DNA from: an uncultured Lachnospiraceae bacterium
GTDB taxonomy: Bacteria; Bacillota; Clostridia; Lachnospirales; Lachnospiraceae
DNA: 35,343 bases
Assembly (NCBI GenBank): GCA_902783775.1
Contig: CACZSI010000132.1
Span: 1-35,343, forward strand
Direction: 5' to 3'
How positions within the stretch are numbered: position 1 is the first letter of the stretch; each line of letters opens with the position of its first letter. Shown piece by piece: positions 72 to 18,750 of the stretch. A program made the translations under genes and the position numbers. The notes beneath the pieces are model-generated. The model saw only the letters and a list, made by a program, of their open reading frames with translations. It searched no databases and had not been told where the DNA came from.

Positions 72-3056
72 TTGAGTAAGGAATATTATTATCGATATCG
101 GAGAAAACTTAATATTTCGCATTCCATGGGTTCTAATAGCAGGCACAATCACACATTGGATATTGAGATTCTTATAAGGGATAATCAGGAAGAATTTGCT
201 ATGTTCAATGATAACGAAAAGATGATTGATAATTACTTTGATCAATATGAGGGAAAGTATATTAATGAGCTAGAAGAATTTATTGGAACTAATTCCACTA
301 TTGAAGATATGGGATATGTATTCTTTAAAGGCTTAAAGGCATTATTTGAGGGAACGGAGTTTGAAATGGACAATATCGCTGTCAGCGAAACTCCGTCTAG
401 AAAATATGTGGTTTCAGATTTTTTAATTAATGGAGTTTTAAATGATAGATGTTCTAAACATGATAGAAAACTTTCTAAATTCATTGATGAGAAAAAGAAT
501 GATGTTTTAAAGAGGTATGAAGAATACAGGACAATCCGTGAAAGCAGAAGGCTGGCAGAAATCAGAAAGAAAAAAGATCGTATAGCCAGAGAAAAAATGC
601 TTTTAATGACTAAGAAAAAGTCTGGTGTAGGGGATGAAGAATTATTTGTGGATGAGGAGTATAGTTCTGCTAAAAATAGAGAAAGATACTCGCTAGATTC
701 TTATGGTCTGATTAAGAAACAGGGAATTAATAAGCTTGAGGTTGTTCTTTATATTTTAATAACTATTGCTTTATCTATTGGATTATTTTTCGTACTTAAG
801 TCATCAGACATTTTAAAGAATACAGAAGAAGTATATATCCATTTAGGAAAAGCCAGATATCTACTGACACAGTTAAAGAATGGCGTGCTAAGTCCAATCT
901 ATATGAAGTCCTGGTATGATGGCTACATGATGTTTATGCACAGTGAGCCTCTTACCTACTATACATTGGCACTTATGGGCTATATTTTTAACTCAGATAT
1001 GATGTTAGGATATGCAGCTACTTTATCTATTATTTTTGCTTTTACAGTCAGTGGATTTACATTTCTAGGCAGAGTTTATGATAAGGCGTTTATAGGTTTT
1101 ATTTCAGGAATTCTTTGGTTTACAATGCCGGAGATAAGCAGACATTATATTATTACAGGTGATATAAAGGTGTTAGTTGCGCTGGCATTTTTACCATTCT
1201 GTTTTGCGTATATTGCTAAGTATTTTCAGAATCGTGGAAGATTTATGCCACTTAAGATTATCACTTCTATGTGGTTAATTGTGCTAGCAGATTTATCCAT
1301 TGCCATTATTGTATTTATAGGTTTCTTAACTATTTTTACCATAAAAGTATTTTATACTAAGCAGGATAGGAAGCTAATCATGACAGTGGGATGCGTGATA
1401 ATGTCTGTGGGATTATCAGCAGGCTGGCTATATAGTGCTTACCGCAATGGAAGTATTCCGGAATTTTATACTAATAACAACGGATACTATATTGGAGCTA
1501 CGTTGTTTGTGATTCTAGTAGGATGTATTTTCTTTGCATATCAGCAGCTTAGAACATATGCTATTGCAGCTATTATCGTGGGACTTTTAGCATTATATAA
1601 ATTGCCGGTTGTGGTAATAATAATGTATATTGCAATAATTTTTATTTTCCTTGAGTGGAAAAAGTGTGACAGAAAAGTTATTTTAGCACTGCTACTTATT
1701 ATCGGTATGAGTAATGTATATAGATTACAGGCCAATGTCAGCACTAAGGATAATTCACTTTATGTGGAAAATGAGAAGATTAAAACTGCCGTGGAAAAGG
1801 CAGGAGTAGTTACAAATGATAATTTACTATATCTAGATATTGATAAGGAAGCTACTTATCCTGGATATTACATGGTGGACAAGAATAAGGATATAGTATT
1901 TTCTAATAAGTCTTCTATGAAATACAATGTTATCACTGATAATATTCAGATGCTTAAGTATGCAGTTTATGCTAAGCGATTTGATTATATATTTGATAGA
2001 AGTTTAGAAATGGGATGCGATACAATTCTCTTTAATTTAAAGGGATTGATTATAACACAGCAGGACAATGAAAAACTAAATATTTCATGTAAGAAATTCG
2101 GCTATGACTTAGTGGCAGGAAGTATTAATGAGAAGTATTTGATTTTCCATAAAGATATAAATAGAAAGATGGGAAATATCACAAAATATCAGGGTATTGC
2201 CATTGGAAAATCATCTAGAAATGTATCACTAATTTATCCGTATTTCGAGAATGGAATGAGTGACAGTTTAGATGATTATTCAGTAAAGAGATTATCTAAA
2301 TATAAGAAAATTTATTTATCCGGCTTTAAGTATAAGAAACTTAAGGATGCAGAAAAGAAGGTTAGAACCTTAGCTAAAAAGGGCATTGATATATATGTGG
2401 ATATGGATGGAATTCCGGCAGATCCACTAACTAACCGACAGAAATTCTTAGATGTTACAGCTCAGACAGTTTCATTTAAAGAAAACTTCCCAGAGTTTAC
2501 ATATAAAACCAGAAAGATTGTTCCTAAGAAATTCTATAAGGAGTACAGCGAGTGGAACACGGTTTATATTGAAAATGTAGACAAGGTGGAGGGGTATTGT
2601 ATGGCGGCAGGAAGAACACTTCCTTATGCCGGAACTAAGATGGAACGCGTACATTTTATGGGACTAAATATTCTCTATCATGTTATTGAAGCTAACGATG
2701 TGAGCATTCAGTTTATTGTGGATGATTTCTTTAATTTAGAGGAAGGGACATCCCCAGTTAGAAGGCAAAAGAACCTTAACATTAAGTATAAATATGATAG
2801 AATAGAAATAGATAGTAGGTACGGAAATATGATTGCACCAATCTCTTATCAGAGGGTATTTAGGGGCAATAAAAAAATTAGAAATGTAAATAATATGCTT
2901 ATGGTAAAAAAGGGAAAGACAGTTTTAACCTTTGACTATAAAAACTTTTATATAGGTGTAGGAATAAGTATATTTATGATCATATTTATGATATTAACAT
3001 TTGCAGTTTATAAGTTTAGATTAAAGAAGCGAGACCAAGAAACTGTGAGAGAGTAA
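72..3056 (+). CDS. Polytopic membrane protein with N-terminal 6-pyruvoyl-tetrahydropterin synthase-like domain (exosortase G locus)
   Basis: Seen: residues 1 to about 120 resemble a PTPS/QueD fold (H17 and H25-x-H27 as the zinc-type histidines, ETPSR at 106-110). A Lys/Arg/Glu-rich cytoplasmic linker follows to about residue 215. Many membrane segments start near 221, then comes a large extracytoplasmic region and a last membrane helix near 961-979. The catalytic Cys of true PTPS is replaced by Ser21. Known: PTPS-like domains and PTPS-related membrane proteins (PF10131 type) occur next to Gram-positive exosortases. Inference: a GT-C-like sugar transferase or flippase-like component of the XrtG system. 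Start: TTG at 72 is preferred over TTG at 30 or GTG at 45. AAAAAGGG at 57-64 is well spaced for it, and it places the first His at residue 17, like residue 16 in the stand-alone homologue at 8923. An in-frame stop at 27-29 closes the ORF upstream. Confidence 0.75.
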   Translation: MSKEYYYRYRRKLNISHSMGSNSRHNHTLDIEILIRDNQEEFAMFNDNEKMIDNYFDQYEGKYINELEEFIGTNSTIEDMGYVFFKGLKALFEGTEFEMDNIAVSETPSRKYVVSDFLINGVLNDRCSKHDRKLSKFIDEKKNDVLKRYEEYRTIRESRRLAEIRKKKDRIAREKMLLMTKKKSGVGDEELFVDEEYSSAKNRERYSLDSYGLIKKQGINKLEVVLYILITIALSIGLFFVLKSSDILKNTEEVYIHLGKARYLLTQLKNGVLSPIYMKSWYDGYMMFMHSEPLTYYTLALMGYIFNSDMMLGYAATLSIIFAFTVSGFTFLGRVYDKAFIGFISGILWFTMPEISRHYIITGDIKVLVALAFLPFCFAYIAKYFQNRGRFMPLKIITSMWLIVLADLSIAIIVFIGFLTIFTIKVFYTKQDRKLIMTVGCVIMSVGLSAGWLYSAYRNGSIPEFYTNNNGYYIGATLFVILVGCIFFAYQQLRTYAIAAIIVGLLALYKLPVVVIIMYIAIIFIFLEWKKCDRKVILALLLIIGMSNVYRLQANVSTKDNSLYVENEKIKTAVEKAGVVTNDNLLYLDIDKEATYPGYYMVDKNKDIVFSNKSSMKYNVITDNIQMLKYAVYAKRFDYIFDRSLEMGCDTILFNLKGLIITQQDNEKLNISCKKFGYDLVAGSINEKYLIFHKDINRKMGNITKYQGIAIGKSSRNVSLIYPYFENGMSDSLDDYSVKRLSKYKKIYLSGFKYKKLKDAEKKVRTLAKKGIDIYVDMDGIPADPLTNRQKFLDVTAQTVSFKENFPEFTYKTRKIVPKKFYKEYSEWNTVYIENVDKVEGYCMAAGRTLPYAGTKMERVHFMGLNILYHVIEANDVSIQFIVDDFFNLEEGTSPVRRQKNLNIKYKYDRIEIDSRYGNMIAPISYQRVFRGNKKIRNVNNMLMVKKGKTVLTFDYKNFYIGVGISIFMIIFMILTFAVYKFRLKKRDQETVRE

Positions 3057-3087
3057 AATGAAGGTAATTAAATAAGGAGATGATGCT

Positions 3088-4368
3088 ATGGAAAAGAAAG
3101 TTATGAAAAAAGGATTCTCAATCATTTCATTGATTACAATATTTACATGTTTATTCGCAGTTAGTGTTATGGCAGATAATATTTCAATAGACGGTAATTT
3201 TGATGATTGGGATAGTGTAAAAAAGACTAAAATTTCTAGCCTATTTTATAAGGAAGTAGCCTTTATCCAGGAAGGTGATACATTGTATATGTACGCTAAG
3301 GAAAATGCTACTAATGCATGGGAAAAATATTTCTCTAATACTTTTCCTGTTTTAATTTCAGAAAATGGAGAAGAGCATACTTTAGTTATTACAGAGGAGA
3401 GTAGTTCCGGTAATAAATCTGATTTAGTAGTGAGAAATCAGAATGGATATAGCATTATTAGTGGTTCATCAGGTAAGCGTAAAAAAGATGGAACATATGT
3501 GTATGAGCTTAAAATTCCTGTTAAGAAATGGGGAAATATAGATTCAGTAAAAATTCATACTGACTACAGCCAGACACAGACTATAAGTGTAAAATCATCT
3601 AGCAGTCAGGAGACTACTAAGGCAGTGACTACACAGGCTGCTACAACTAAACCTGCGGCTACTACAGTGGTACCAACTACTAAGCAGCAGACCACACCTA
3701 AGCCTACACAGGGTGAGAGTGCCACACCAAAGGATATTGTAGTGCCGGCATCAGAAGGTGTAGTTGTTATTGATGGACATTTTGATGAGTGGAAAAATTA
3801 TCCTTTCGTATATGTGACTAACTGGAATATGCCAGAGAATCAGAGAAACGATGATAACTGCAGAAGGCTAAGTATCGTAGTGGATGATGATTATATTTAT
3901 TTCTACGTTAGAATGATTGGCGGATGGAATGATCCTCTTAATGGAAATGAGTATATGTTATCAGTGGGGCAGTATGGAGTTTCCCTAAATCTTCGTATGC
4001 AGGACGACTCACAGTTACCACAGTATAATTTAGCTAATGGCAGATATGACTTAAATGTATATTATAAAAATAAGAGTGCACATCTTTCAGATGAGACATT
4101 GATAGATGATGCAGAAGCTAAAATGTTAGTTTCAGAAGATGAACCGGATCAGGTAGAGGTTAAAGTTCCTAAGGAAATCTTTAAGGTTATCCATGGAATA
4201 GATGTCAATGACGTTAAAGAAATCACATTGTCTAACCCTAACTTATTTGATCATGGAATTAGTAGCTCAGCTACATCTACAGCACCTGCAGTGGGAATTA
4301 TTATTTGTATAATAAGTGCAGGGGCAGCATTCTTGATTTTCAGAAAGAAAAAATCAGCAGCTAAGTAA
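3088..4368 (+). CDS. Secreted two-domain protein with Thr-rich linker and C-terminal sorting-type tail (probable exosortase G substrate, Firmicu-CTERM type)
   Basis: Seen: a signal peptide (cleavage likely after VMA at 29) and two domains that each open with IDGxFDxW (34-41 and 228-235). Between them (about 170-215) lies a linker rich in Thr, Ser, Pro and Gln. The tail from about 383 carries NPNLF, then ATSTAP (395-400), a hydrophobic helix (about 401-418) and RKKKSAAK. The layout of short motif, helix and basic end is that of a sorting signal, but no LPXTG is present. Known: IDGxFDxW starts are typical of CBM9/DOMON-like beta-sandwich domains, and a Firmicu-CTERM signal has been proposed as the XrtG target. 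Inference: this is the cargo of the exosortase 23 nt downstream, and the Thr-rich linker is a likely O-glycosylation site. AAGGAG at 3074-3079 sits 8 nt before the ATG. Confidence 0.72.
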   Translation: MEKKVMKKGFSIISLITIFTCLFAVSVMADNISIDGNFDDWDSVKKTKISSLFYKEVAFIQEGDTLYMYAKENATNAWEKYFSNTFPVLISENGEEHTLVITEESSSGNKSDLVVRNQNGYSIISGSSGKRKKDGTYVYELKIPVKKWGNIDSVKIHTDYSQTQTISVKSSSSQETTKAVTTQAATTKPAATTVVPTTKQQTTPKPTQGESATPKDIVVPASEGVVVIDGHFDEWKNYPFVYVTNWNMPENQRNDDNCRRLSIVVDDDYIYFYVRMIGGWNDPLNGNEYMLSVGQYGVSLNLRMQDDSQLPQYNLANGRYDLNVYYKNKSAHLSDETLIDDAEAKMLVSEDEPDQVEVKVPKEIFKVIHGIDVNDVKEITLSNPNLFDHGISSSATSTAPAVGIIICIISAGAAFLIFRKKKSAAK

Positions 4369-4391
4369 AAAACTGAAAGCGAAAAATTGTT

Positions 4392-4994
4392 ATGTTATTA
4401 ATTGAGGTATTAGGTTTCATAGTATGGCTTTATATAGTGTGGACATTAAAGCGAGCAAACCTTAAATTTTTTAGATATATAATCGGAACCGTGGGAGCGT
4501 TTATATTTATGCTTCTATGGGTGGAAAAATTAATAGTATTACCAATGATGAAGGGAGTGGCATTTGTCACCGGATTCATAGGGGAGTTCACAGGAATGTT
4601 TGACTCATACTATAAGTACAGTATGTTATTTATTCCTAAGGACACAGCATCAATTTCTCTGTATGTGGACTTTGAATGTTCCGGCGTAATTGAGATAATG
4701 GCCTTCCTTTCATTATTGTGGTTTTTTGAAATATATAATCTAAAAGAGAAAATAAAATATTCAATATTAGGAGTACTATTTGTTTTTGTGGCCAATGTAG
4801 TCAGACTATTAGTCATCTGCACCATAATCTATTTTGGTGGCAATGACTGGTTCTATTTTGCACATTCCATTTTTGGAAGAATAGTATTCTACGCATTGAC
4901 AGTATATTTATATTTCTCGGTGTTTACAAAACCTCATATTCAACGCCAAAAAGTAGGACAGTTCTCCTACGAGAAGGAGGATGAAGATGAATGA
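4392..4994 (+). CDS. xrtG: Exosortase family protein XrtG (membrane cysteine transpeptidase-like)
   Basis: Seen: 200 residues with several transmembrane helices. The exosortase/archaeosortase triad is in the expected order: Cys96 in ECSG, Arg138 in NVVRLL and His158 in AHSIFG. The C terminus is acidic and cytoplasmic (EKEDEDE). Known: exosortases are multi-pass enzymes proposed to recognise a C-terminal motif-helix-basic tail and cleave or transfer the protein at the membrane. The Gram-positive type (XrtG, TIGR03110) is small and travels with a GT2 enzyme and PTPS-like proteins, exactly as here. Inference: it processes the secreted protein encoded just upstream. The ribosome site is weak (GAAAGCGAAAA), so translation may depend on the upstream gene. 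The 3' end overlaps the glycosyltransferase by 8 nt. Confidence 0.88.
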   Translation: MLLIEVLGFIVWLYIVWTLKRANLKFFRYIIGTVGAFIFMLLWVEKLIVLPMMKGVAFVTGFIGEFTGMFDSYYKYSMLFIPKDTASISLYVDFECSGVIEIMAFLSLLWFFEIYNLKEKIKYSILGVLFVFVANVVRLLVICTIIYFGGNDWFYFAHSIFGRIVFYALTVYLYFSVFTKPHIQRQKVGQFSYEKEDEDE

Positions 4995-6363
4995 TTTTAT
5001 CCTAACAATTTCTAAATCCTTCGTTTTTTGGCTGACGTGGATTATTATTCCCATAATTATGGAGATTATCCCAGCATTCTTTGGTTTCTTTATCTTGTTA
5101 TTTAAGGGACGAAAGAAAAGGGAAAAAGATATAAAGGGAAGATTGCCGGAGATAACTATTATCGTACCTATCTATAATAGTGAGGCGACATTATTTGGAT
5201 GTATTGAATCTATAGCGCAGTCAAGTTATCCATCAGAGTTGATAGATGTATATCTGGTAAACAACAAATCGAAGGATAGAAGTTTTGAAATATTTATGAA
5301 GGCTCAGGAAAAATATCCTAAGCTGACAATGCAGTGGATGAATGCTAAGCAGGGAAAATCTAAGGCATTGAACATGGCACTTTTCAGTGCCAAGGGAAAA
5401 TATATTATCCATATTGACAGTGATGGTACATTGGAAAAAAACGCCATAATGAACATGGTTAGAAAGTTTGAAAATAATAGTAATGTTCATTGTATGACAG
5501 GTGCCATATTAATTAACCCGGATGATATCGAGAGAACAGATTCTATTTATATGAAATTGTTTAGAAGAATAGAATTTTTCGAATATGCTCAGGCGTTTTT
5601 AGCCGGCAGAAATTATCAGGCAGAGTTAGATAGCATCTTTACATTATCTGGTGCGTTTTCAGCATTTAGAAAATCCACCATCCTAAAGACTAGACTGTAC
5701 AATACAGATACGGTAGGAGAGGATACCCAGATAACATTCCAGATTAAAAAGGACTTAAACCAAAAGGTATATATGTGTGAGGATGCATTGTTTATGGTAG
5801 ATCCTATTGAGGATTTAAATAAAATGTACACTCAAAGACAGAGATGGCAAAGAGGTGAATTAGAAGTTTTTCATATGTTTTTTAAGAACAATATGAATAT
5901 AACTAAAGGCTTCTTTTCAAACTTTATGATTAGATTAATTGTATTTGATCATACATTTGCATTCCCTAGAATGATTTGGTACTTTGCATTGATTTGCTTA
6001 TTGTTTATGAATTATCCAATGAAGTTAGTAGTAGGATCTGTGGGAGTAATTTATGTACTCTATGTTATATCCTCGGCGCTTTATTACATAAACATTTTAA
6101 CCTTTCTTCGATATTTTCCGAAGATTCGAAAGTATTATGCCACTAAGTGGTACATATGTATCATCCTACCGCTTTATAACTTTATAATGTTCTGGATTAG
6201 ATTCGCAGGCATCATCAATAGTATAAACAGCGACGGAATGTGGAGAACTAAGAATTTGACAGAAGAGAGTGATACCTTTAAGGACATAGTTAAGAATGAT
6301 TTTATGTTTGTAACCCGCGTAGTTCAAAGATTAAAAGAAAAGATAAACGGTATCACAAGATAG
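4987..6363 (+). CDS. Exosortase G-associated GT2 family glycosyltransferase
   Basis: Seen: 458 residues. An N-terminal membrane segment (about 10-40) is followed by a GT-A catalytic domain with IIVPIYNSE (58-66), the metal-binding DSD (144-146), the ED base region in VGEDTQ (243-248) and QRQRW (283-287). C-terminal membrane helices cover about 310-420. The DxD, ED and Q-x-x-R-W set is that of processive GT2 synthases (cellulose, hyaluronan and PNAG types). Known: the family is recorded as an XrtG neighbour (TIGR03111). Inference: it builds a polysaccharide or a lipid-linked sugar used with the exosortase substrate. Start: AAGGAGG (4974-4980) directly abuts an ATG at 4981 but lies 6 nt from the ATG at 4987, so 4987 is chosen. 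The gene overlaps xrtG by 8 nt, which suggests translational coupling. Confidence 0.86.
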   Translation: MNDFILTISKSFVFWLTWIIIPIIMEIIPAFFGFFILLFKGRKKREKDIKGRLPEITIIVPIYNSEATLFGCIESIAQSSYPSELIDVYLVNNKSKDRSFEIFMKAQEKYPKLTMQWMNAKQGKSKALNMALFSAKGKYIIHIDSDGTLEKNAIMNMVRKFENNSNVHCMTGAILINPDDIERTDSIYMKLFRRIEFFEYAQAFLAGRNYQAELDSIFTLSGAFSAFRKSTILKTRLYNTDTVGEDTQITFQIKKDLNQKVYMCEDALFMVDPIEDLNKMYTQRQRWQRGELEVFHMFFKNNMNITKGFFSNFMIRLIVFDHTFAFPRMIWYFALICLLFMNYPMKLVVGSVGVIYVLYVISSALYYINILTFLRYFPKIRKYYATKWYICIILPLYNFIMFWIRFAGIINSINSDGMWRTKNLTEESDTFKDIVKNDFMFVTRVVQRLKEKINGITR

Positions 6364-6382
6364 AAAAGTGATGGTATAGATT

Positions 6383-8905
6383 ATGGAAAAACAAAGTGAA
6401 CTAGAGGTAGTATTAAGTAAAAAAAGCATAAAAGCACTGGTGGCATTTGCTATACCAGTGCTATTTATGCTACTTTTATATTATGGTGTGGGTATTTATC
6501 CTTATAAATCTAAAACGGTTTTAACATCAGATTTATCGGGACAGTACGTAAACTACTTTGCTTCACTAAAAGATATAGTTTTATCTCACAGAGGTTTTTT
6601 CTATTCATTTTCTAAAACCTTAGGTGGCGATATGCCGGGTATGGTGGCATATTATTTGCTAAGCCCATTAAATGTATTGTTCATTCTTGTTGAAAAAAAT
6701 GATCTTCCATTTGTGTTAATGTTAGTAACTCTAACTAAAATAGGTTTATCAGGTAGCTTTTTCTCCATACTTTTAGGAGAAAAGAGCGAATATTATTATA
6801 GAAATATTATTTTTTCTACAGCCTATGCACTAAGCGGTTATTCAATTGCCTTCGCATTTAACTTAATGTGGATGGATACGGTGGTTTTAATTCCGTTAGT
6901 AATTTGGGCAGTAGAGAGAATTTTCAATGAAAAAAATACCATTCCATATGTTATCACACTATTTTTATTAGTGGTAAGTTGTTATTATACCGGATATATG
7001 GGATGTATATTTGTGGCAATGTATGTTGTCTACAGAATAATTTCCGGGGAAGAAAGAGCTAAGATTAAAGTTAAGTCACTCATAAAAATCGGCTTTACTA
7101 CATTGGTTTCATTGGGGATGACAGCTCTAGTTTTAATACCGGCTGTGACATCACAGAACACTAGCCGTTCCATCGGTGGTAAATTTGAGATAAGCACTAA
7201 ATGTCAAATTAGTGCAATGGAATTTTTTAACGGACTATTTAGTTTTAACGGTAGTCATTACACTATAGAAGATAATTTGCCATATGTATTTTATACAGTG
7301 CCATTATTATTTTTCGCAGTGGCATTTTATTTTAATAGCAAAATTAAGATAAGAGAAAAGATAATAGTATTTATAATTAGCACAAGCTTCGTTTTAAGTA
7401 CTATGTTTGTGACTGCAGATGCAGTGTGGCATGGCTTTGCCAGCCCTAATCAGTTTTACTATAGATATACATTTTTATTTATATTTATTGCCATTATAAG
7501 CGCTTGGCGATGCTACGAAAATTTAGATGGGCTAAAGAAAACTGTAGTGATTATATTGCCAATGTTAACAGTGCTAGGAATGATGGCAGCATGTATTATA
7601 ACTGTAAAAGGCGGAATCACATTAACAGCCATAATTATAAACACAGTTTTAATTATAATCACCGCATATTTGGCATTTAAAACCACTCATATGGATGAGG
7701 TTTTAGTTCCTATAGTAAGAATACTTTTATTTATCGCAGTAACTGCCAGCATCTTATTTCAGGGCAATGAAAAAATGTTTAGCACTAAGTTTGCCGATAA
7801 CAGTTTAAGCGGTTACTTAGATGAGATGGAACCTTGCATTAATTATATAAAAGACTATGACAAGGGATTTTATAGAACAGAGAAAACTTTTGTAAACTCA
7901 TTAAATGATCCTATGCTGCTTAACTATTATGGACTTTCACATTTTAGTTCATCTGATAGTGAGGATATTATGAATCTGATGGAGTACTCAGGATATACCA
8001 GAAATCAGTATTTCTGGAGCTATTATAACCAGGGATCCACGTTGGGAATGGATTCATATTACGGTGTTAAGTATATTTTATCCAGAAAACAATTAGATAA
8101 AAAGTTGAAGCAAATAGCTAAATATGAGAATATAAATATATATGAAAATGATAATGCATTAGGCATTATATTTGCAGGGTACGGAACACAAAATTCAGTA
8201 GAAAAAAATAATGTATTTGAGTACGTAAATAGAATATATAAAAGCATTACAGATTTAGATGAAGATATCTATACTAAGATGGAAAATATAGAGGTGATTA
8301 AGGAAAGCGAGACTAAAGTTCACTATTGCTTTAGACCGTTAAATGATCAGTATTTCTATATGGCAATGCCGCTAAACCGCAATCCATCTCTAATGGAAGT
8401 AAAGGTAAATGATAAGGATATTGGAGAGTACTATGATACTTATAATAGAGGAGTGCTTTCCCTTGGATCATATAAATTAGGAAATGTGGTGGATGTCACA
8501 ATTGATTATAAAGGTGGAGAGGTAATTGAACCACTTATTTATTCAGAAAACGCTGAACTTTTAAAGACTTATACTGCACAAATTAATAAGTCCACAAAGT
8601 CAGTAAAGCTTTTAACAGACTCACATATAAAAGCGGAAATTGAGCTAGATAAGCACGGTAGAATTTTAACTACTATTCCCTATAGCGAAAACTGGAAAGC
8701 TAAGTTAGATGGAAAAGAAGTGACAATTGATACACATCAAAATTGTCTGATTGCATTAAATGATGTAAAAGAAGGAAAGCATAAATTAGAATTAAAATAT
8801 GTTCCTGCTAACCTAAAAATAAGTTTAGTTATATCAGGAATATCATTGGCAATATTTATTTTAATGATAGTGGTAATTGTATCTAAAAAGATTAAAGATA
8901 GATAA
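6383..8905 (+). CDS. YfhO family multi-pass membrane protein (GT-C type glycosyltransferase family)
   Basis: Seen: 840 residues. An N-terminal helix is followed by the conserved luminal loop SDLSGQYVNYF and then a TLGGDMPGM segment. About a dozen hydrophobic helices follow to around residue 460, then an extracytoplasmic domain ending in YSENWKAKLDGK and GKHKLELKYVPAN, and a final helix with a basic end (KKIKDR). These are hallmarks of the YfhO family (PF09586). Known: YfhO members have a GT-C fold, and some add sugars from undecaprenyl-phosphate carriers to teichoic acids on the outer face of the membrane. Inference: here it probably moves a lipid-linked sugar onto the surface product of the exosortase locus. 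The Shine-Dalgarno sequence is poor, and the gene begins 19 nt after the glycosyltransferase. Confidence 0.82.
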   Translation: MEKQSELEVVLSKKSIKALVAFAIPVLFMLLLYYGVGIYPYKSKTVLTSDLSGQYVNYFASLKDIVLSHRGFFYSFSKTLGGDMPGMVAYYLLSPLNVLFILVEKNDLPFVLMLVTLTKIGLSGSFFSILLGEKSEYYYRNIIFSTAYALSGYSIAFAFNLMWMDTVVLIPLVIWAVERIFNEKNTIPYVITLFLLVVSCYYTGYMGCIFVAMYVVYRIISGEERAKIKVKSLIKIGFTTLVSLGMTALVLIPAVTSQNTSRSIGGKFEISTKCQISAMEFFNGLFSFNGSHYTIEDNLPYVFYTVPLLFFAVAFYFNSKIKIREKIIVFIISTSFVLSTMFVTADAVWHGFASPNQFYYRYTFLFIFIAIISAWRCYENLDGLKKTVVIILPMLTVLGMMAACIITVKGGITLTAIIINTVLIIITAYLAFKTTHMDEVLVPIVRILLFIAVTASILFQGNEKMFSTKFADNSLSGYLDEMEPCINYIKDYDKGFYRTEKTFVNSLNDPMLLNYYGLSHFSSSDSEDIMNLMEYSGYTRNQYFWSYYNQGSTLGMDSYYGVKYILSRKQLDKKLKQIAKYENINIYENDNALGIIFAGYGTQNSVEKNNVFEYVNRIYKSITDLDEDIYTKMENIEVIKESETKVHYCFRPLNDQYFYMAMPLNRNPSLMEVKVNDKDIGEYYDTYNRGVLSLGSYKLGNVVDVTIDYKGGEVIEPLIYSENAELLKTYTAQINKSTKSVKLLTDSHIKAEIELDKHGRILTTIPYSENWKAKLDGKEVTIDTHQNCLIALNDVKEGKHKLELKYVPANLKISLVISGISLAIFILMIVVIVSKKIKDR

Positions 8906-8922
8906 AGGGTATAGGTAAAAAA

Positions 8923-9294
8923 ATGAAATACAATCAGTATAAATATAAATTTTATTTGAATGCAAATCATTCAATTATTATAAATGAAAAAATGGGTGAG
9001 ATACATCCTCATACTTGGGAAATGAGCCTTGATGTAATTAAGGTAGTGGATGAGTTTATCCAGTTTTCAGCAGTTGAAAAAGCGGTGGAGGAAGTGTTGG
9101 CACCTTACCAGGATAAGTACATAAACGAGGTGAAGCCTTTTGATGAACTTAATCCTACATTGGAAAACTTAACTAAATTTTTTGATGATACTATAGGGGA
9201 AAGATTAAAGCAGGAAGGATGGTTATTAACAAGAATGGAGGTGGCTGAGACACCATCTAGAATTTATATAATTGATAATTTGCAAGATGAATAA
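8923..9294 (+). CDS. 6-pyruvoyl-tetrahydropterin synthase-related protein (exosortase G locus)
   Basis: Seen: 123 residues covering one PTPS/QueD domain. The zinc-type histidines are H16 and H28-x-H30. NPTLENL (77-83) matches the family's substrate-side helix, and E109 lies in AETPSR. The catalytic Cys, four residues before H-x-H in QueD/PTPS, is Met24, and the usual LDH active-site segment reads KYIN. Known: a PTPS-related family (TIGR03112) is recorded beside XrtG, as a small protein or as a domain of larger ones; both forms are present in this locus. Inference: a pterin- or zinc-binding protein that probably lacks the classical synthase reaction, perhaps regulatory or making a different product. 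It is unlikely to serve queuosine or biopterin synthesis, since no such genes are nearby. Confidence 0.8.
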   Translation: MKYNQYKYKFYLNANHSIIINEKMGEIHPHTWEMSLDVIKVVDEFIQFSAVEKAVEEVLAPYQDKYINEVKPFDELNPTLENLTKFFDDTIGERLKQEGWLLTRMEVAETPSRIYIIDNLQDE

Positions 9295-9317
9295 TCTCTT
9301 ATAAAAGGAGGGTATTT

Positions 9318-10946
9318 ATGGGTGAAAACGAATTAAAAAACTTTGCAATTATTCTAGAGAACGAAAACTTAGATGATTCTAGAAGCGTTAATGCAATTAA
9401 GGAAATGCTTAAGCAGGAAAATATTCTAGGATTAGAGTATAAGATTTACGATATAAACTCTGGAAAATTAGAGGAGACTAGGGAAGTATTTACAGGTCCT
9501 AAAAGTAACGAAAAGCCTTTAGTTTTAGATATGAAATCTCACCGGGGAAGAATCAGAACGGAATTTAAGATTTATCCTGCAGGGGAGATAACTGAGGAAA
9601 ATAAAGTGCTAATGGAGGATTTGTGTGCATCTATTTTTGTAATTTTAGAAAATGATGCACTTTTAAAAATTATTAATTCCAATAATAATTTTCTAGTGGA
9701 CGGAATGCTTAGCAGGGATGTTTTCGTGGATAAGGCATTGGAGAAAATTAGGGAAAATAAGGGCGTAGAATACTATTCTTTAGTGGTGGCTATTACTGAT
9801 TTCGATGCTATGAGAAGACTTTACGGTGAAGAAAAAGGTGAAGAAATCGTAAAGGGATATGCTAAAAAATTAGTAAGCTTATGTGATGAACAGGAGTTAG
9901 TAGGTCACAGAGGAAATGATAAGTTTGCCATGCTTATAAAAAAAGAAAATAAGAATAAGCTTGATGAACTTATGGAGAAGTATGAGATGAAATTAGAAAT
10001 TGATGGTAAGGAAGTTTCTATTATTATTAATGCTTACGCAGGTGTTTCTACCATTGATTCTGATTCTGCTACTTATGAGAAGCTTATTGTGGAACCTAGA
10101 TTGGCACTTTCTTATGGTGTAAATAACGGAATTAAAATGGTTAAAATTACCAATGAAATAAGAGATAGAATGCTTAACCGCAGAAGGATAGAAGATTCTT
10201 TTGCCGACGCGCTAGAGAAGGAATATATTAAACTTTGGTTCCAGCCTAAAATTGATATAAGAACTGATAAGATTGTGGGAGTGGAGGCGCTAGCTAGATG
10301 GATAGAGCCTGATAGAAAATATTTCCCTAATGAGTTTGTGCCGATACTAGAAGAGTCAGGCCTCATAAAGGAATTAGATTTTTATGTGCTAGAGAGAGCT
10401 TGTAAATATATGGCTGAGTGGAGAAAAGCAGGACATAATATTGTTCCATTGTCAGTAAATTTCTCCAGGGTAAATTTAGAAGATTTAAATCTGGCATATA
10501 AGATAAATGAGATTATTGAAAAATATCACATCAAAAAAAATCAGATTACTGTGGAAATTACAGAGACAGCATCTGAAAAGATGAAGGATAAGATGAGATA
10601 TTTTCTTGATACTATGCATGAATATGGTATCCAAACTTCTGTGGATGATTTTGGAACAGGTTATGCTTCCCTTTCCATCCTTAGAGATTTTACTATGGAC
10701 GAAATTAAAATTGATAAATCGTTTATTGACGCGCCGGTTTTTCAGAATAAATATCGAATCATAGTAGAGGGCATTGTCGAGATGGCTAAGTCTTTAGGAA
10801 TGAAAGTTATAGTGGAAGGTGTGGAGACTGAGTTACAAAAAGAGTTTCTAAAAGAAGTGGGATGTTATTATGTCCAGGGATATCTGTATGATAAGCCATT
10901 GCCACGTGACGAATTTGAAGAACGTTTAGTAGTTGGTTACAACTAG
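9318..10946 (+). CDS. Cyclic-di-GMP phosphodiesterase: degenerate GGDEF plus intact EAL domain
   Basis: Seen: 542 residues with no membrane helix. Residues 1-125 form an N-terminal region of unclear type. A GGDEF-like domain spans about 130-285, but its signature is degraded to RGNDKF (198-203). An EAL domain spans about 290-540 with EAL at 323-325 (EALARW), EITET, DDFGTGY, KIDKSFI, EGVET and QGY, all present. Known: these residues bind metal and substrate in c-di-GMP phosphodiesterases, and degenerate GGDEF domains often act as GTP-sensing regulatory modules. Inference: it lowers c-di-GMP in opposition to the cyclase encoded next. A clear AAAGGAGGG ribosome site precedes the ATG. The gene starts 23 nt after the PTPS-like gene, so the exosortase locus and c-di-GMP turnover look co-transcribed. 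Confidence 0.88.
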   Translation: MGENELKNFAIILENENLDDSRSVNAIKEMLKQENILGLEYKIYDINSGKLEETREVFTGPKSNEKPLVLDMKSHRGRIRTEFKIYPAGEITEENKVLMEDLCASIFVILENDALLKIINSNNNFLVDGMLSRDVFVDKALEKIRENKGVEYYSLVVAITDFDAMRRLYGEEKGEEIVKGYAKKLVSLCDEQELVGHRGNDKFAMLIKKENKNKLDELMEKYEMKLEIDGKEVSIIINAYAGVSTIDSDSATYEKLIVEPRLALSYGVNNGIKMVKITNEIRDRMLNRRRIEDSFADALEKEYIKLWFQPKIDIRTDKIVGVEALARWIEPDRKYFPNEFVPILEESGLIKELDFYVLERACKYMAEWRKAGHNIVPLSVNFSRVNLEDLNLAYKINEIIEKYHIKKNQITVEITETASEKMKDKMRYFLDTMHEYGIQTSVDDFGTGYASLSILRDFTMDEIKIDKSFIDAPVFQNKYRIIVEGIVEMAKSLGMKVIVEGVETELQKEFLKEVGCYYVQGYLYDKPLPRDEFEERLVVGYN

Positions 10947-10971
10947 GCAATGGATGGAAAAGGAAAGGGCT

Positions 10972-12045
10972 ATGAGATTATTAATTGATTTTATAAAACA
11001 AACATATATTTATATAATTGTTTTAGGTGGATTATTAATAGCATTAAACTCAATGTTTTTAGCTGATAAAAAGTCGAAAAGGAAAATCAATACCACATTA
11101 TTTATTTTATCAGCTGTAGTTTTTGTGGACTTTTTAACCGGAGTTTTAGAGGACAATAAAGATCTTATGTGGATTTACAAAGTTTTTGATTTGATATCCC
11201 AGGGATTAAAACCAGTTATTGTAATTGTACTGATTAAGCTGTTTACAGATAGGTTTAACAGAATATTTATCGCCATAGTTTCCGTTAATACCATCACATG
11301 TATGATAGCGATTTTCTTCAATGGATTTGTAAGTGAGAGAGTGGTTAAAGCCTACAGCATTCTGCCGATTGTCTGTAGAATCGTGCTATTAATTGTGCTT
11401 ATGGTTGAGGGAATAAAGTACATAAGTAAAACAAATCTTAGAGAAGCGAAGCTATTGATTTATATTCTAGTTAACATAGTGGTGACTATCAGTATCGATA
11501 TTATCACCACAAACGCTAGATTATTAAATCCAATCTATGCAATTAACATTATGTTCTATCTTCTTTATGTACATAATGAAAATTCTAAAAAGGATCCTCT
11601 TACTAAGGCTTTTAACCGTCAATCCTTTTATTCTGATGTTGAGTCTATTGGCTATGCCATCAACGGCGTAATTTTATTTGATGTCAATGACTTTAAAAAG
11701 ATTAACGATGTCTATGGCCACACCAAGGGCGATGAAGTTTTAGTATCTATTGTTGAGTCAGTGAATAAATACTTAACTCACGGGTCTAGATTATATCGTA
11801 CCGGAGGAGACGAATTTTTAATAATTAGTAGAAAAAATAAGGACACAATTATTAGTATTAGTGATAAAATAAGAAGTGAGTGTCAGAAGATGGGTTATCC
11901 TTGTGCAGTGGGAGTGTGTCTGCGCAATAAAAATATTTTATCTATCGATGATATGGTTAAGGAAGCGGATGAAAATATGTATAGGGATAAGAGTATCCAA
12001 AAGCAGAAGGCTAAAGATCAGAAAAACTCAAATTCACTCAAATAA
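10972..12045 (+). CDS. Membrane-bound diguanylate cyclase (GGDEF)
   Basis: Seen: 357 residues. Residues 1-200 contain about six hydrophobic helices with no recognised sensor motif. A C-terminal GGDEF domain follows with KKDPLTKAFNR (206-216), the metal-binding DVNDFKKIND and an intact GGDEF (278-282). No RxxD inhibitory site precedes it: the matching position has His-x-x-Arg. Known: such proteins make c-di-GMP from two GTP. Inference: a cyclase without product feedback, paired with the upstream EAL enzyme and likely sensing the membrane or envelope. Start: a longer reading frame opens at TTG 10933 inside the upstream gene, but AAAAGGAAAGGG (10958-10969) and the ATG at 10972, which leads straight into the first helix, are preferred. 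Confidence 0.85.
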   Translation: MRLLIDFIKQTYIYIIVLGGLLIALNSMFLADKKSKRKINTTLFILSAVVFVDFLTGVLEDNKDLMWIYKVFDLISQGLKPVIVIVLIKLFTDRFNRIFIAIVSVNTITCMIAIFFNGFVSERVVKAYSILPIVCRIVLLIVLMVEGIKYISKTNLREAKLLIYILVNIVVTISIDIITTNARLLNPIYAINIMFYLLYVHNENSKKDPLTKAFNRQSFYSDVESIGYAINGVILFDVNDFKKINDVYGHTKGDEVLVSIVESVNKYLTHGSRLYRTGGDEFLIISRKNKDTIISISDKIRSECQKMGYPCAVGVCLRNKNILSIDDMVKEADENMYRDKSIQKQKAKDQKNSNSLK

Positions 12046-15768: not shown

Positions 15769-16188
15769 TTATTCAATTACTGCATCTTTCAATACGCAGA
15801 AGAAATATCCTTTTCCTTTTACTTTAGTAAACTTACCGCATACTGTAACTTTTTCTTCGTCCTTAGGATACTTTCCATTTTTTAGTTCGAACTCAAATCC
15901 CTGAGAACAACAAGCTGTGGCATCATAGATAGTACATTCATGATATGTCTTTTTAGTGGTTTGATCAAAGTACTTATAGCATACACCAGTCATTCTAACC
16001 ATCTTACCCACATATTTATCAGGCTCAAGGGACATATTATAAATCTCAGTGTAGGCTACCGTGTCACCTAGTTTAGATAAATCTACGTCTACTTTTTTAG
16101 AAGAACTAGCTGATTTAGAACCACATCCTGTGACTAAAGCCATAATTAAAACCAGACTTATTGCCAATCTTAATAATCTTTTTTTCAT
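15769..16188 (-). CDS. Small Cys-rich lipoprotein, fourth gene of the zinc uptake operon
   Basis: Seen: 139 residues. A lipoprotein signal ends in LVTGC (Cys22), then a Ser-rich spacer and a compact beta-rich domain with EPDKYVGKMVRMTGV, ATACCSQGFEFEL and a VTVCGKF segment. Cysteines are at 70, 85, 93, 94, 117 and 131. Small proteins with an ACCSQG motif next to znuABC-type genes are familiar to me from Clostridia, but I know of no assigned function; an OB-like fold is a guess. Inference: a membrane-tethered zinc-binding or zinc-passing partner of the transporter. Start: the ATG overlaps the znuB stop by one nucleotide (TAATG), with AAGAGG upstream, so translation is coupled. A longer frame from 16224 inside znuB lacks the lipoprotein start and is not used. 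Confidence 0.75.
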   Translation of the reverse strand: MKKRLLRLAISLVLIMALVTGCGSKSASSSKKVDVDLSKLGDTVAYTEIYNMSLEPDKYVGKMVRMTGVCYKYFDQTTKKTYHECTIYDATACCSQGFEFELKNGKYPKDEEKVTVCGKFTKVKGKGYFFCVLKDAVIE

Positions 16189-17039
16189 TATTCTATACCT
16201 CTTAGTTTTCCGATAACAAAACAAATAATAAATGTAATGACATCAACTAAAACAATTGTAGAACCAACAGGTGTACCTGCAATAATTGAAACTAGGATAC
16301 CAACTGCGGCACATATAACAGATAAAAGAGCTGAACAGATAGTAACGCTTTTAAAAGTATAGAAAATTCTCATTGCCGATAGGGCAGGGAAAATAATTAA
16401 AGCAGATACTAGAAGCGAGCCCACTAAATTCATTGCTAAAACAATAATAACTGCGATGATTATAGCAATCATTAGATTATATAAATTAGTGTTAGTTCCC
16501 ACAGCATTGGCAAAGTTTTCATCAAAAGTCACGTCGAAAATCTTGTGATAGAAAATAATGAAGAAAACTAAAACTAAGATGGAGAGGATTGTACAAATCA
16601 AAACATCACTCATCTGCAATGTAAGAATGGATGTTGAACCAAAAAGTGTGGTACAAACATCTCCGGAAATATTAGCGCTTTTAGGGGCGAATAGGTTCAT
16701 AATAAGGTAACCCATGGCCAATGCACCAACTGAAATCATTGCCACTGCGGCATCACCTTTAATCTTAGTATTCTGGCCGGTTCTCAAAAGAAGGATGGCA
16801 CAGATTACTGTGAAAGGTAAAACCAACATCATATTATTAGTAAGCTTTAATACGCTAGCAATAGTCAATGCGCCAAAAGCCACATGTGAAAGTCCATCGC
16901 CGATAAAAGAGAAGCGCTTTAGCACCAATGTCACTCCTAGAAGTGATGAACATAATGCAATTAAAACACCTACGATTAATGCATATCTAACAAATGGATA
17001 TTGAAGAGAGGTATAAAGTGTATCAAAAATATCTGACAT
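16188..17039 (-). CDS. znuB: Zinc/manganese ABC transporter permease
   Basis: Seen: 283 residues with about eight hydrophobic helices and the family segments ALCSSLLGVTLVLKRFSF, DGLSHVAFGA (coupling-helix region) and AMNLVGSLLVSALIIFPA. Known: the ABC-3 permease family (PF00950) moves Zn2+ or Mn2+ handed over by a ZnuA-type lipoprotein. The AAGGAGG ribosome site lies in the end of znuC, one nucleotide separates the two genes, and the stop overlaps the lipoprotein start. The metal is taken as zinc because the partner ZnuA has a His/acid-rich loop and the operator looks Fur/Zur-like; manganese cannot be ruled out. Confidence 0.9.
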   Translation of the reverse strand: MSDIFDTLYTSLQYPFVRYALIVGVLIALCSSLLGVTLVLKRFSFIGDGLSHVAFGALTIASVLKLTNNMMLVLPFTVICAILLLRTGQNTKIKGDAAVAMISVGALAMGYLIMNLFAPKSANISGDVCTTLFGSTSILTLQMSDVLICTILSILVLVFFIIFYHKIFDVTFDENFANAVGTNTNLYNLMIAIIIAVIIVLAMNLVGSLLVSALIIFPALSAMRIFYTFKSVTICSALLSVICAAVGILVSIIAGTPVGSTIVLVDVITFIICFVIGKLRGIE

Positions 17040-17040
17040 T

Positions 17041-17739
17041 CTATTTACCTCCTTTCAATGATAAAAACAGTTTACCCTCAGGGGTATTTATAAATTCATC
17101 TTTAGTTCCATAGAAAGTTTTTTCGCTTATATAGAATATATGAGAAGCATCATTAAGTGCTACATTGATATCATGAGAAATCATAACAATAGTGATTCCC
17201 TCTTCATTTAATGACTTAATTAAAGCGTACATATCCGCTGTAACCTTAGGATCTAAGCCGGCTACAGGCTCATCTAAAAACAATATCTTTTCTGTGGCAC
17301 AAAGTGCTCTAGCTAAAAGAACTCGCTGTTGCTGACCGCCAGATAAGTGTTTATAAGATTTATTGGCTAAGTCATCCACAGTCATACGCTTCATATTTTT
17401 AAAAGCCTCTTCCTTTTCCTTGGCACTGTAGAAAGGGCGAAGTCCGCGTCTGTTCTGGAAACCGGACATAACAACCTCTAAAACAGAGGCCGGAAAATCC
17501 TTCTGAACCACTGTCTGCTGTGGTAAATATCCAATAGCATTTTTATTAATATTCCAAACTATTTTTCCGTCAATAGCTGATGTAAGCCCTAAAACAGTTT
17601 TAAGAAAAGTACTTTTTCCTGCACCGTTTTCTCCGATTACGCATACATAATCGCCACTGTTAATTGTAAGATTAACATCTTTAACTAATGGATTAGAATC
17701 GTAACCTAGGGAAACATTATCTAAAACTAATTGTTCCAT
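17041..17739 (-). CDS. znuC: Zinc ABC transporter ATP-binding protein
   Basis: Seen: 232 residues with Walker A GENGAGKST (36-44), a Q-loop in YLPQQ, the signature LSGGQQQR (132-139), Walker B ILFLDEP (152-158), a D-loop GLDP and the switch His in ISHD. Known: this is the ATPase that drives metal import through ZnuB. The start has a good GGAGG site 24 nt after znuA. All nucleotide-binding motifs are intact, so the protein should be active. Confidence 0.93.
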   Translation of the reverse strand: MEQLVLDNVSLGYDSNPLVKDVNLTINSGDYVCVIGENGAGKSTFLKTVLGLTSAIDGKIVWNINKNAIGYLPQQTVVQKDFPASVLEVVMSGFQNRRGLRPFYSAKEKEEAFKNMKRMTVDDLANKSYKHLSGGQQQRVLLARALCATEKILFLDEPVAGLDPKVTADMYALIKSLNEEGITIVMISHDINVALNDASHIFYISEKTFYGTKDEFINTPEGKLFLSLKGGK

Positions 17740-17763
17740 ATATTCCTCCGTAGAATAAGGAAA

Positions 17764-18750
17764 CTATTTTAATGCAGATTTTAGAACTTTTAAATTTTCT
17801 TCCATTATAGAAATATAATCAGTGGAAGAATCTAAAATATTAGGTGACTGCATTGAATTAAGAGTAAGTATTCCTTGATTCTTTTTCTTAGTATTACTGA
17901 TAATTGTTTTAGCGATTTTCTTATCGCTGTTGTCAATTACCATTATATTAGATAAATTTGATTCATCAACCTTTTTAGCTAAAAAAGTTATAGTTTCAAA
18001 GCTGGCCTCACTCTCGGCAGAACAGCCTGCAAAAGCAGCATAACATTTAATATTATAATCATCTGCTAAATACTTAAATGGAAATCTGTCTCCGAAAAGT
18101 AAAGTTTTGTTTTTAGCCTTTGATACAGTTTCTTCGTATTCCTTATCTAATTTATTAAGCTTAGCTAAATAAGCATCTAAATTTTTCTTATATAAATTCT
18201 TATTTTTAGGATCCATTTTTTCTAATTTTTTCTCAAGTTTTTCACAAAGAGTAGCACTGCATTTTAGTGACAACCAAACATGTTCATCATATTCTATTTC
18301 ATCATCACTATGCTCTTCATGCTCTTTTTCTTCCTGCATTCCCTCTAATTCTTCCTCTTCCTTAGCCTGTGATCCTAATTCCTCTAAAAGATTAAAACTA
18401 TTTAAACCTTTATTAGCCTTAACTAAATCCTTAGCCCAGCCATCAGACTCACCGCCAACATACACAAATAAATCAGATTTCTTAATCTTTATAATATCCA
18501 TAGCCGAAGGCTGAAAACTGTGTAGGTCAGCACCTTTCGTAATCAATGTAGTGATATCAGCATTTTTAGCCTGATCTCCCATAATAGCTTTAATCCACTG
18601 ATATTCAGGATATATAGTGGCAATAATTTTAAATTTCTTAGAATCCTCTTTATTGTTTATAGGATTACTGCAACCACTTAAACTAGAAATTAACAATGCC
18701 AATGAGGCTACAACTACTATCATCTTTTTAAAATTTTTTCTTATATTCAT
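17764..18750 (-). CDS. znuA: Zinc-binding lipoprotein of ABC transporter (ZnuA/AdcA-like)
   Basis: Seen: 328 residues with a lipoprotein signal ending in LSGC (Cys27). Metal-site segments include GADLHSFQPS and YDEHVWLS, with a Glu/His/Asp-rich loop just before the second (about 133-155). Where Gram-negative ZnuA has a third His, this protein reads LFGDRFPFKYL, followed by GCSAESEASFETI; I recognise this as a common variant in Clostridia. Known: these proteins capture zinc outside the membrane and deliver it to ZnuB; the acidic His loop is a zinc-type feature. First gene of the operon, with the promoter and operator upstream on the same strand. The ribosome site is TTAGGAGC. Confidence 0.9.
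   Translation of the reverse strand: MNIRKNFKKMIVVVASLALLISSLSGCSNPINNKEDSKKFKIIATIYPEYQWIKAIMGDQAKNADITTLITKGADLHSFQPSAMDIIKIKKSDLFVYVGGESDGWAKDLVKANKGLNSFNLLEELGSQAKEEEELEGMQEEKEHEEHSDDEIEYDEHVWLSLKCSATLCEKLEKKLEKMDPKNKNLYKKNLDAYLAKLNKLDKEYEETVSKAKNKTLLFGDRFPFKYLADDYNIKCYAAFAGCSAESEASFETITFLAKKVDESNLSNIMVIDNSDKKIAKTIISNTKKKNQGILTLNSMQSPNILDSSTDYISIMEENLKVLKSALK

Follow-up and report, generated by a model that had tools for sequence, protein, structure and literature searches.

What an exosortase system makes, and on what signal, is the question raised by a gene run in contig CACZSI010000132.1 (assembly GCA_902783775.1) of an uncultured Lachnospiraceae bacterium. Annotated XrtG systems of this kind in Firmicutes have no established function. 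The whole stretch of DNA analysed, hereafter the window, is 35,343 nucleotides (nt) long; coordinates are positions in it, and the locus genes lie on its plus strand. They encode the exosortase XrtG, a tailed Firmicu-CTERM partner (the CTERM protein), a GT2 glycosyltransferase, a PF10131 membrane protein, a YfhO protein and two domains related to 6-pyruvoyltetrahydropterin synthase (PTPS), followed by two genes with GGDEF or EAL domains. GGDEF-type genes make the biofilm signal cyclic diguanylate (c-di-GMP). The reading favoured here, with a probability of about 0.58, is that the locus is a c-di-GMP-linked surface-glycopolymer synthase with one exosortase-anchored protein. Such a tie would give XrtG systems both a predicted signal and a predicted product, a surface polymer.

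The proposed mechanism can be outlined as follows. The PgaC/IcaA-like GT2 enzyme, judged by its motifs, would polymerise and extrude a polysaccharide, and the PF10131 enzyme, judged by its GT-C fold, would add or transfer lipid-linked sugars, here together with YfhO. XrtG is predicted to remove the C-terminal tail of its dedicated secreted partner, a processing and anchoring role to which the evolution of the pair points, and the anchored domain, possibly carbohydrate-binding, would sit at the outer membrane face and hold or guide the polymer. The two downstream genes, from their domain content, would make and break c-di-GMP for the locus. The putative receptors of the signal are the degenerate GGDEF or EAL protein and the PTPS-like domain; in many relatives the control element would be protein X, a degenerate GGDEF-bearing membrane protein encoded inside the operon.

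Distribution of the locus among relatives

A family sample comprised 250 genomes, one per genus. XrtG (TIGR03110) is present in 16 of them, and TIGR03111 (GT2) and TIGR03112 (PTPS-like) each exceed their cut-offs in 16, with four further weak TIGR03112 matches below the cut-off; some GT2 match at E ≤0.001 is found in all 250. TIGR04145 (Firmicu-CTERM) occurs in 17 genomes, 15 above cut-off. The identical 16 genomes hold all four families, and this shared distribution is one support for the favoured reading; within the set G326 scores only 36 bits with TIGR04145, and the seventeenth genome, G381, has a weak 21.7-bit match outside it. All listed TIGR04145 matches in the 16 genomes lie in the locus save one, on contig C83 of G314, which marks the tailed protein as an apparently dedicated partner. 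The match outside the locus (G314:C83:9311-9802) is a CTERM-type domain of 38 bits, covering model positions 3-147 only, in an open frame of 1750 amino acids (aa). In a draw across the phylum, XrtG was found at E ≤0.001 in 12/249 genomes, 8 of them above cut-off.

Gene content was surveyed in 112 distinct annotated loci, after loci with identical XrtG had been merged. Two loci were dropped for want of XrtG, L052 (an XrtG-like open reading frame (ORF) below the 100-bit threshold) and L118 (none called), as was L058, a 5.5-kb contig that begins inside GT2. The 76 loci with at least 6.5 kb on both sides are termed full loci, and the 36 with less on a side were excluded from the counts. GT2 is present in 76/76 full loci, a count that is partly circular because 80 of the loci were drawn by GT2 similarity, as the best 80 of 411 relatives. 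A CTERM domain in some form also occurs in 76/76, a PTPS-like gene in 74 (a six-frame recheck recovered L036 and L101 from four apparent absences) and PF10131 in 70. In L051, XrtG and GT2 form a single ORF of 482 aa (10085-11533), which may be a fusion or an assembly error.

The initial annotation of this DNA had named the families and put forward, as a check, whether its six genes always occur together. The names stand: TIGR03110 (194 bits against a cut-off of 102.75), TIGR03111, TIGR03112 (twice) and TIGR04145 all exceed their model cut-offs, and PF10131 and PF09586 are assigned by Pfam. Co-occurrence is borne out for the four families that share the 16 genomes but not for YfhO, which was rejected as a core part, being present in just 5/76 full loci.

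Predicted product

The D, DxD, ED and QxxRW positions of GT2 are kept in 110 to 112 of 113 distinct homologues; for the DxD, ED and QxxRW residues the figure is 111 or 112, the remainder being gaps. DxD, ED and QxxRW are hallmarks of processive polymer synthases, and the second-best NCBIfam model for the enzyme is PgaC/IcaA. A polysaccharide is therefore a likelier main product than the processed, sugar-modified surface protein initially proposed, although the latter would be possible through the GT-C fold of PF10131 and the Thr-rich linker that the CTERM protein contains. The best fit is a polymer synthase paired with a sugar-binding anchor, and protein glycosylation is its main rival. The PTPS-PF10131 fusion protein was modelled by AlphaFold with a confidence (pLDDT) of 80.9, and its top Foldseek matches in the PDB are STT3, AftD, PglB and ArnT, with AglB also found, in line with a GT-C fold for the PF10131 part. 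YfhO resembles PgfM1 and PgfM2 at 272 and 253 bits, far under the cut-offs of 1400 and 1500. In L035 (10435-13311) one ORF joins GT2 to a phosphoglycerol-transferase-like domain (PF00884); the GT2 ORFs of L110 and L112 are similar in length to this fusion.

The exosortase, its substrate and a fused clade without the catalytic cysteine

Alignment places an intact triad, Cys96, Arg138 and His158, in the window's XrtG, as had been claimed from the first. The CTERM protein has an N-terminal signal-like segment and two CTERM-model domain copies separated by a Thr-rich linker, of which residues 166-218 (bounds chosen by us) are 57% Thr/Ser/Pro/Gln. It ends in the sorting-type tail ATSTAP-TM-RKKK and matches TIGR04145 at 140 bits, in keeping with the earlier view of one dedicated secreted partner. 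Among 101 distinct CTERM tails, 94 pass a hydrophobicity limit and 90 match a loose motif, both set by us, and all 101 have at least two basic residues after the hydrophobic stretch. Many CTERM homologues are only about 200-270 aa long. The second CTERM domain, in a predicted model with pLDDT 85.5, is strand-rich with a terminal helix. Foldseek gave no PDB match for the domain at E 0.001 or better, and the Pfam scan no carbohydrate-binding module (CBM) match for the protein; the model suggests that the domain is perhaps CBM9-like and may bind carbohydrate.

Three layouts of the CTERM domain are found. In the window and most other loci it is a free secreted protein with a tail (layout i); in L043, L046, L047 and L050 the domain and tail form the C terminus of the PF10131 protein (layout ii); and in ten sequences (L044, L045, L048, L049, L147, L151 and L153-L156) it is fused to the N terminus of XrtG and has no tail (layout iii). 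The domain is common to free and fused forms: alignments A10 and A9 match each other at E 9e-26 and A9 matches the free set at E 1e-7, while free L152 matches fused L044 at 38% over 185 aa, the match stopping just before the tail.

The triad was surveyed in 112 distinct XrtG sequences scoring above 100 bits. Cys, Arg and His are kept in 102/102 unfused sequences. In the fused sequences Cys is gone in 10/10, replaced by Asn in nine and by Ser in one; Arg remains in 10/10 and His in 9/9 readable. Unfused members of family f20, to which the fused sequences also belong, retain the Cys and have tailed partners. The fused sequences form one clade (support 97/96; present in 98% of bootstrap trees) in a tree of 43 hand-chosen sequences of the 112, for which the program warns of long branches at L149, L158 and L159; the idea of ten independent events was accordingly rejected. 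On the simplest reading, the Cys would serve tail processing, and the cell's need would be for a domain held at the membrane by its C-terminal side. This joint loss of Cys and tail gives tail processing evolutionary support that is clean, though indirect; XrtG would cleave the substrate at its tail and transfer it. Anchoring may be only part of the explanation, since layout ii retains both Cys and tail though its domain is tethered on the N-terminal side, and the Ser or Asn of the fused forms may still act as a nucleophile. The fused, Cys-less clade is in effect a natural experiment, one that bears on how an exosortase serves its substrate.

c-di-GMP genes and protein X

The locus had been taken to be complete at position 9294, but the run continues, after gaps of 23 and -14 nt, with two c-di-GMP genes that the initial annotation omitted. 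In the GGDEF-EAL protein the GGDEF position reads NDKF and is degenerate; its EAL domain keeps the residues that we take to be needed for hydrolysis. Together with the intact GGDEF of the second gene, the locus thus holds predicted genes for both synthesis and breakdown of c-di-GMP. The genome (1.92 Mb in 143 contigs, 89% complete) has one XrtG, and a PF00990 search of it found two GGDEF domains and no more, each of them in this run, while a PilZ search of the same 89% complete assembly found none; both results are cited in support of the favoured reading. Judged by this assembly, c-di-GMP synthesis is possible from genes of this run alone.

Both genes also follow the locus in the close relatives L053 and L056, with a gene of opposite orientation coming next. 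The GGDEF-EAL gene is present after the locus in L054 and L058; in L054 the ORF behind it (332 aa) does not match the custom GGDEF profile, and the L058 sequence ends there. In a more distant setting, a 43.7-kb Lactococcus lactis plasmid typed as conjugative (L158, NZ_CP110851.1) carries a mini-locus at 4413-10691 in which a diguanylate cyclase and an EAL gene precede CTERM, XrtG, GT2 and PTPS-like genes, all in one row; the plasmid also has a TIGR03766 glycosyltransferase. Its EAL differs from that of the window at several conserved places, and no GGDEF domain was matched when a control L. lactis genome was searched with PF00990. XrtG systems are also found on megaplasmids of Eubacterium eligens and Aneurinibacillus, and Clostridium ljungdahlii (L061) has the locus as well.

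A second proposed link to c-di-GMP lies inside the operons of relatives. Protein X, of 340-410 aa, is encoded between GT2 and the free PTPS-like gene in many of them and is present in 51/76 full loci; a GGDEF or EAL gene other than X lies within 8 kb in 8, and 55 have one or the other. Nine X proteins (A3) were chosen because a custom GGDEF profile matched them, and in a Pfam scan PF00990 matches 7/9 (best E 1.4e-22). When a 23-member Lachnospiraceae X set was compared with ten true GGDEF domains, its C-terminal 120 columns aligned (probability 91.6, E 8e-7); with the nine A3 proteins it aligned along nearly the whole length (E 8e-37), and a GT2 control gave a probability of 0.7%. On these grounds X is predicted to be a membrane sensor that bears a degenerate GGDEF domain.

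The PTPS-like proteins

In L028, L031, L076, L077, L080 and L087 (L085 repeats L028) X has a PTPS-like domain where its degenerate GGDEF part would otherwise be, five of the six swaps falling among the full loci; L104 and L127 have this domain in addition to a nearly full-length X. The family was followed in 72 distinct free copies encoded after GT2, with positions mapped by profile alignment to solved PTPS. The three positions that we take to be zinc-ligand His (His16, His28 and His30) are each kept in 71/72, as are Gln63 and Glu109, and Phe48, Asn68 and Glu81 in 72/72; the assignment of a base-binding Glu and of catalytic Cys, Asp and His is likewise ours. At the PTPS Cys position the six commonest residues, L/M/K/Q/R/E, account for 62/72, the Asp position is Gln in 71/72, and the His position is mostly D or N (66/72). 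A single-sequence PDB search with the free protein gave nothing at E 0.01, while a profile search did match, and Foldseek pairs the model of the fused copy's cytosolic domain with QueD/PTPS, at a best target TM of about 0.8.

The description of these partners as pterin-synthase-like is thus upheld for the fold, the TIGR03112 match and the zinc and base residues, but not for the chemistry, the catalytic residues being lost in both copies. By its residues the PTPS-like protein is predicted to bind zinc and a base but to lack the chemistry of pterin synthases. This pared-down fold, present at 74/76 full loci, could represent a nucleotide sensor of a new kind, and the PTPS-like and EAL proteins are both candidate c-di-GMP receptors. 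The window also contains, on the minus strand at 16188-18750, genes resembling those of ABC transporters, together with one for a zinc-binding protein of the ZnuA type (PF01297); a zinc site is also kept by the PTPS-like proteins.

Gene order and other features of the window

The six initially annotated ORFs were recovered at the same positions (Table 1), with gaps of 31, 23, -14, 19 and 17 nt in order, as was the claim that no gap exceeds 31 nt. The first ORF has two possible starts, TTG at 30 or TTG at 72, with AAAAGGG just 5' of 72; its PTPS-like match starts at about nt 90.

Table 1. Genes of the run, with the profile or alignment evidence for each.
Feature	Position	Strand	Evidence
PTPS-like domain fused to PF10131 membrane protein; predicted GT-C fold (oligosaccharyltransferase/ArnT-like)	72..3056	+	TIGR03112 83 bits; PF10131 231 bits
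Firmicu-CTERM protein	3088..4368	+	TIGR04145 140 bits, two stretches
XrtG exosortase, Cys96/Arg138/His158	4392..4994	+	TIGR03110 194 bits; alignment
GT2 glycosyltransferase with DxD, ED, QxxRW	4981..6363	+	TIGR03111 677 bits; PgaC/IcaA 135 bits
YfhO membrane protein (accessory)	6383..8905	+	PF09586 526 bits
Free PTPS-like protein	8923..9294	+	TIGR03112 154 bits; alignment to solved PTPS
Degenerate GGDEF (NDKF) + EAL protein	9318..10946	+	PF00990 41 bits; PF00563 220 bits
Predicted membrane diguanylate cyclase, GGDEF motif intact	10933..12045	+	PF00990 78 bits

An Rfam scan of the window found no c-di-GMP riboswitch or other element at gathering score. Promoter and terminator scans performed no better than chance (72 against 69.1 in shuffles, and 8 against 6.2), and the latter found no plus-strand terminator-like site before 11653. 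An iorA-like gene follows the last gene of Table 1 after 18 nt, so spacing alone cannot show where the run stops. Further along, at 29877-31097 and 31164-32309, lies a tandem pair of GH16-like genes (PF00722).

Weighing the explanations

Several findings count against a c-di-GMP-linked polymer synthase. The relatives L055 and L032, which have YfhO in the same place as the window, are without either c-di-GMP gene, showing that such local genes are not universal even near the window, and 21/76 full loci have neither protein X nor a GGDEF/EAL gene within 8 kb. RxxD, the c-di-GMP-binding I-site motif, stands before the GGDEF position in 0/9 of the A3 X proteins, which leaves c-di-GMP binding by X without motif support. 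These two points, the relatives without local genes and the missing RxxD, slightly weaken the reading. The X-type proteins of L028, L033 and L034 had no GGDEF match in the first Pfam scan; the missing 11% of the genome could hold further GGDEF genes, and the genome-wide counts cover GGDEF and PilZ, EAL and HD-GYP not having been searched genome-wide. The best Foldseek PDB match of the CTERM domain, the CBM9 structure 7nwo, is weak (E 0.023, TM 0.29), and the single origin of the fused clade means that one event was kept in ten sequences.

Protein glycosylation offers a different account of the same enzymes: GT2 would make a lipid-linked sugar, PF10131 and YfhO would attach it to the CTERM protein at its Thr-rich linker, XrtG would sort the product, and c-di-GMP would set expression or activity only. 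The likeness of PF10131 to the oligosaccharyltransferases STT3, PglB and AglB, that of YfhO to PgfM1 and PgfM2, and the composition of the linker all suit it. The QxxRW signature and PgaC/IcaA likeness of GT2 do not, nor do the many CTERM homologues too short to leave much room for a linker, or layout iii, which puts the CTERM domain inside XrtG itself; we regard this account as possible, if rather unlikely. That the c-di-GMP genes are chance neighbours from another unit, beside a constitutive XrtG system, seems improbable. The 21 full loci without any such gene nearby, L055 and L032 included, would be expected on that account, and tight spacing proves little when it extends to the iorA-like gene, yet these two genes hold both of the GGDEF domains that the genome search yielded, L053 and L056 retain them beside the locus and have a gene of opposite orientation next, a c-di-GMP pair stands ahead of the locus on the L. 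lactis plasmid too, and X lies inside 51 full loci.

Least probable, in our view very much so, is an XrtG that acts as a membrane scaffold and does not cleave tails, its Cys column being incidental. The clade without Cys keeps Arg and His and so presumably has a working protein; against this stand the invariant Cys of the 102 unfused sequences, the CTERM domain at every full locus, and the coincidence of Cys loss with fusion and tail loss. A bolder joint proposal, which we hold doubtful, is that the PTPS-like domain is a new receptor for c-di-GMP or another guanine nucleotide and that a covalent XrtG-substrate adduct is the working state. The receptor half would draw on a T-fold without pterin chemistry that keeps a zinc site and base-binding Glu, has gained a near-invariant Gln and at several loci stands in for the degenerate GGDEF on the same sensor module; in the adduct half, the fused clade may have made the adduct permanent in the gene and then dispensed with the Cys. 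The c-di-GMP-linked polymer synthase with one anchored protein remains the preferred reading of the locus.

Comparison with known systems

Membrane polysaccharide synthases with a GGDEF-type receptor of their own are described for Listeria monocytogenes Pss (pssA-E, receptor PssE; PMC4125290) and for the Pseudomonas Pel operon, which encodes PelD (PMC8461298). The layout of protein X recalls PelD or PssE. The Pss and Pel systems differ in that the descriptions consulted name no exosortase or PTPS-like protein, and in that the degenerate GGDEF found here is without RxxD in the nine proteins examined. The gts operon of Lactobacillus acidophilus (GtsA, GtsB, PdeB) sets a PgaC/BcsA-like GT2 beside an EAL-type c-di-GMP receptor and has been linked to exopolysaccharide and co-aggregation; as described there, it has three genes and no exosortase (PMC6123363). 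Like Pss with PssE, gts with PdeB counts as a precedent for the favoured reading. The PEP-CTERM/EpsH exosortase is likewise a Cys/Arg/His membrane enzyme with tailed partners, recurrent in exopolysaccharide loci, but its partners number a median of 8 per genome according to the account consulted (PMC1569441), against one dedicated partner in the locus here. For the archaeosortase ArtA, ArtA-dependent anchoring is reported as lipid-mediated (PMC7157517).

Among the open-licence papers searched, no title on exosortase with c-di-GMP, or on 6-pyruvoyl with GGDEF, concerns XrtG, and publication elsewhere is possible. The sole XrtG/exosortase paper found there (PMC12854382) reports over-expression of an XrtG system in interferon-inducing Lactobacillus plantarum, strains that self-aggregate more; its relevant passages do not test what the system makes, and the paper does not mention c-di-GMP. 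In the same species, c-di-GMP, biofilm and auto-aggregation rise with guanosine monophosphate, in a text without the word "exosortase" (PMC13297897). The locus is the same as the NCBIfam XrtG/Firmicu-CTERM system in its four families, TIGR03110, TIGR03111, TIGR03112 and TIGR04145, and differs from it, as far as the sole XrtG paper goes, in the proposed tie to c-di-GMP. Further differences, found in this analysis, are protein X and the fusion of XrtG to its substrate with loss of the Cys.

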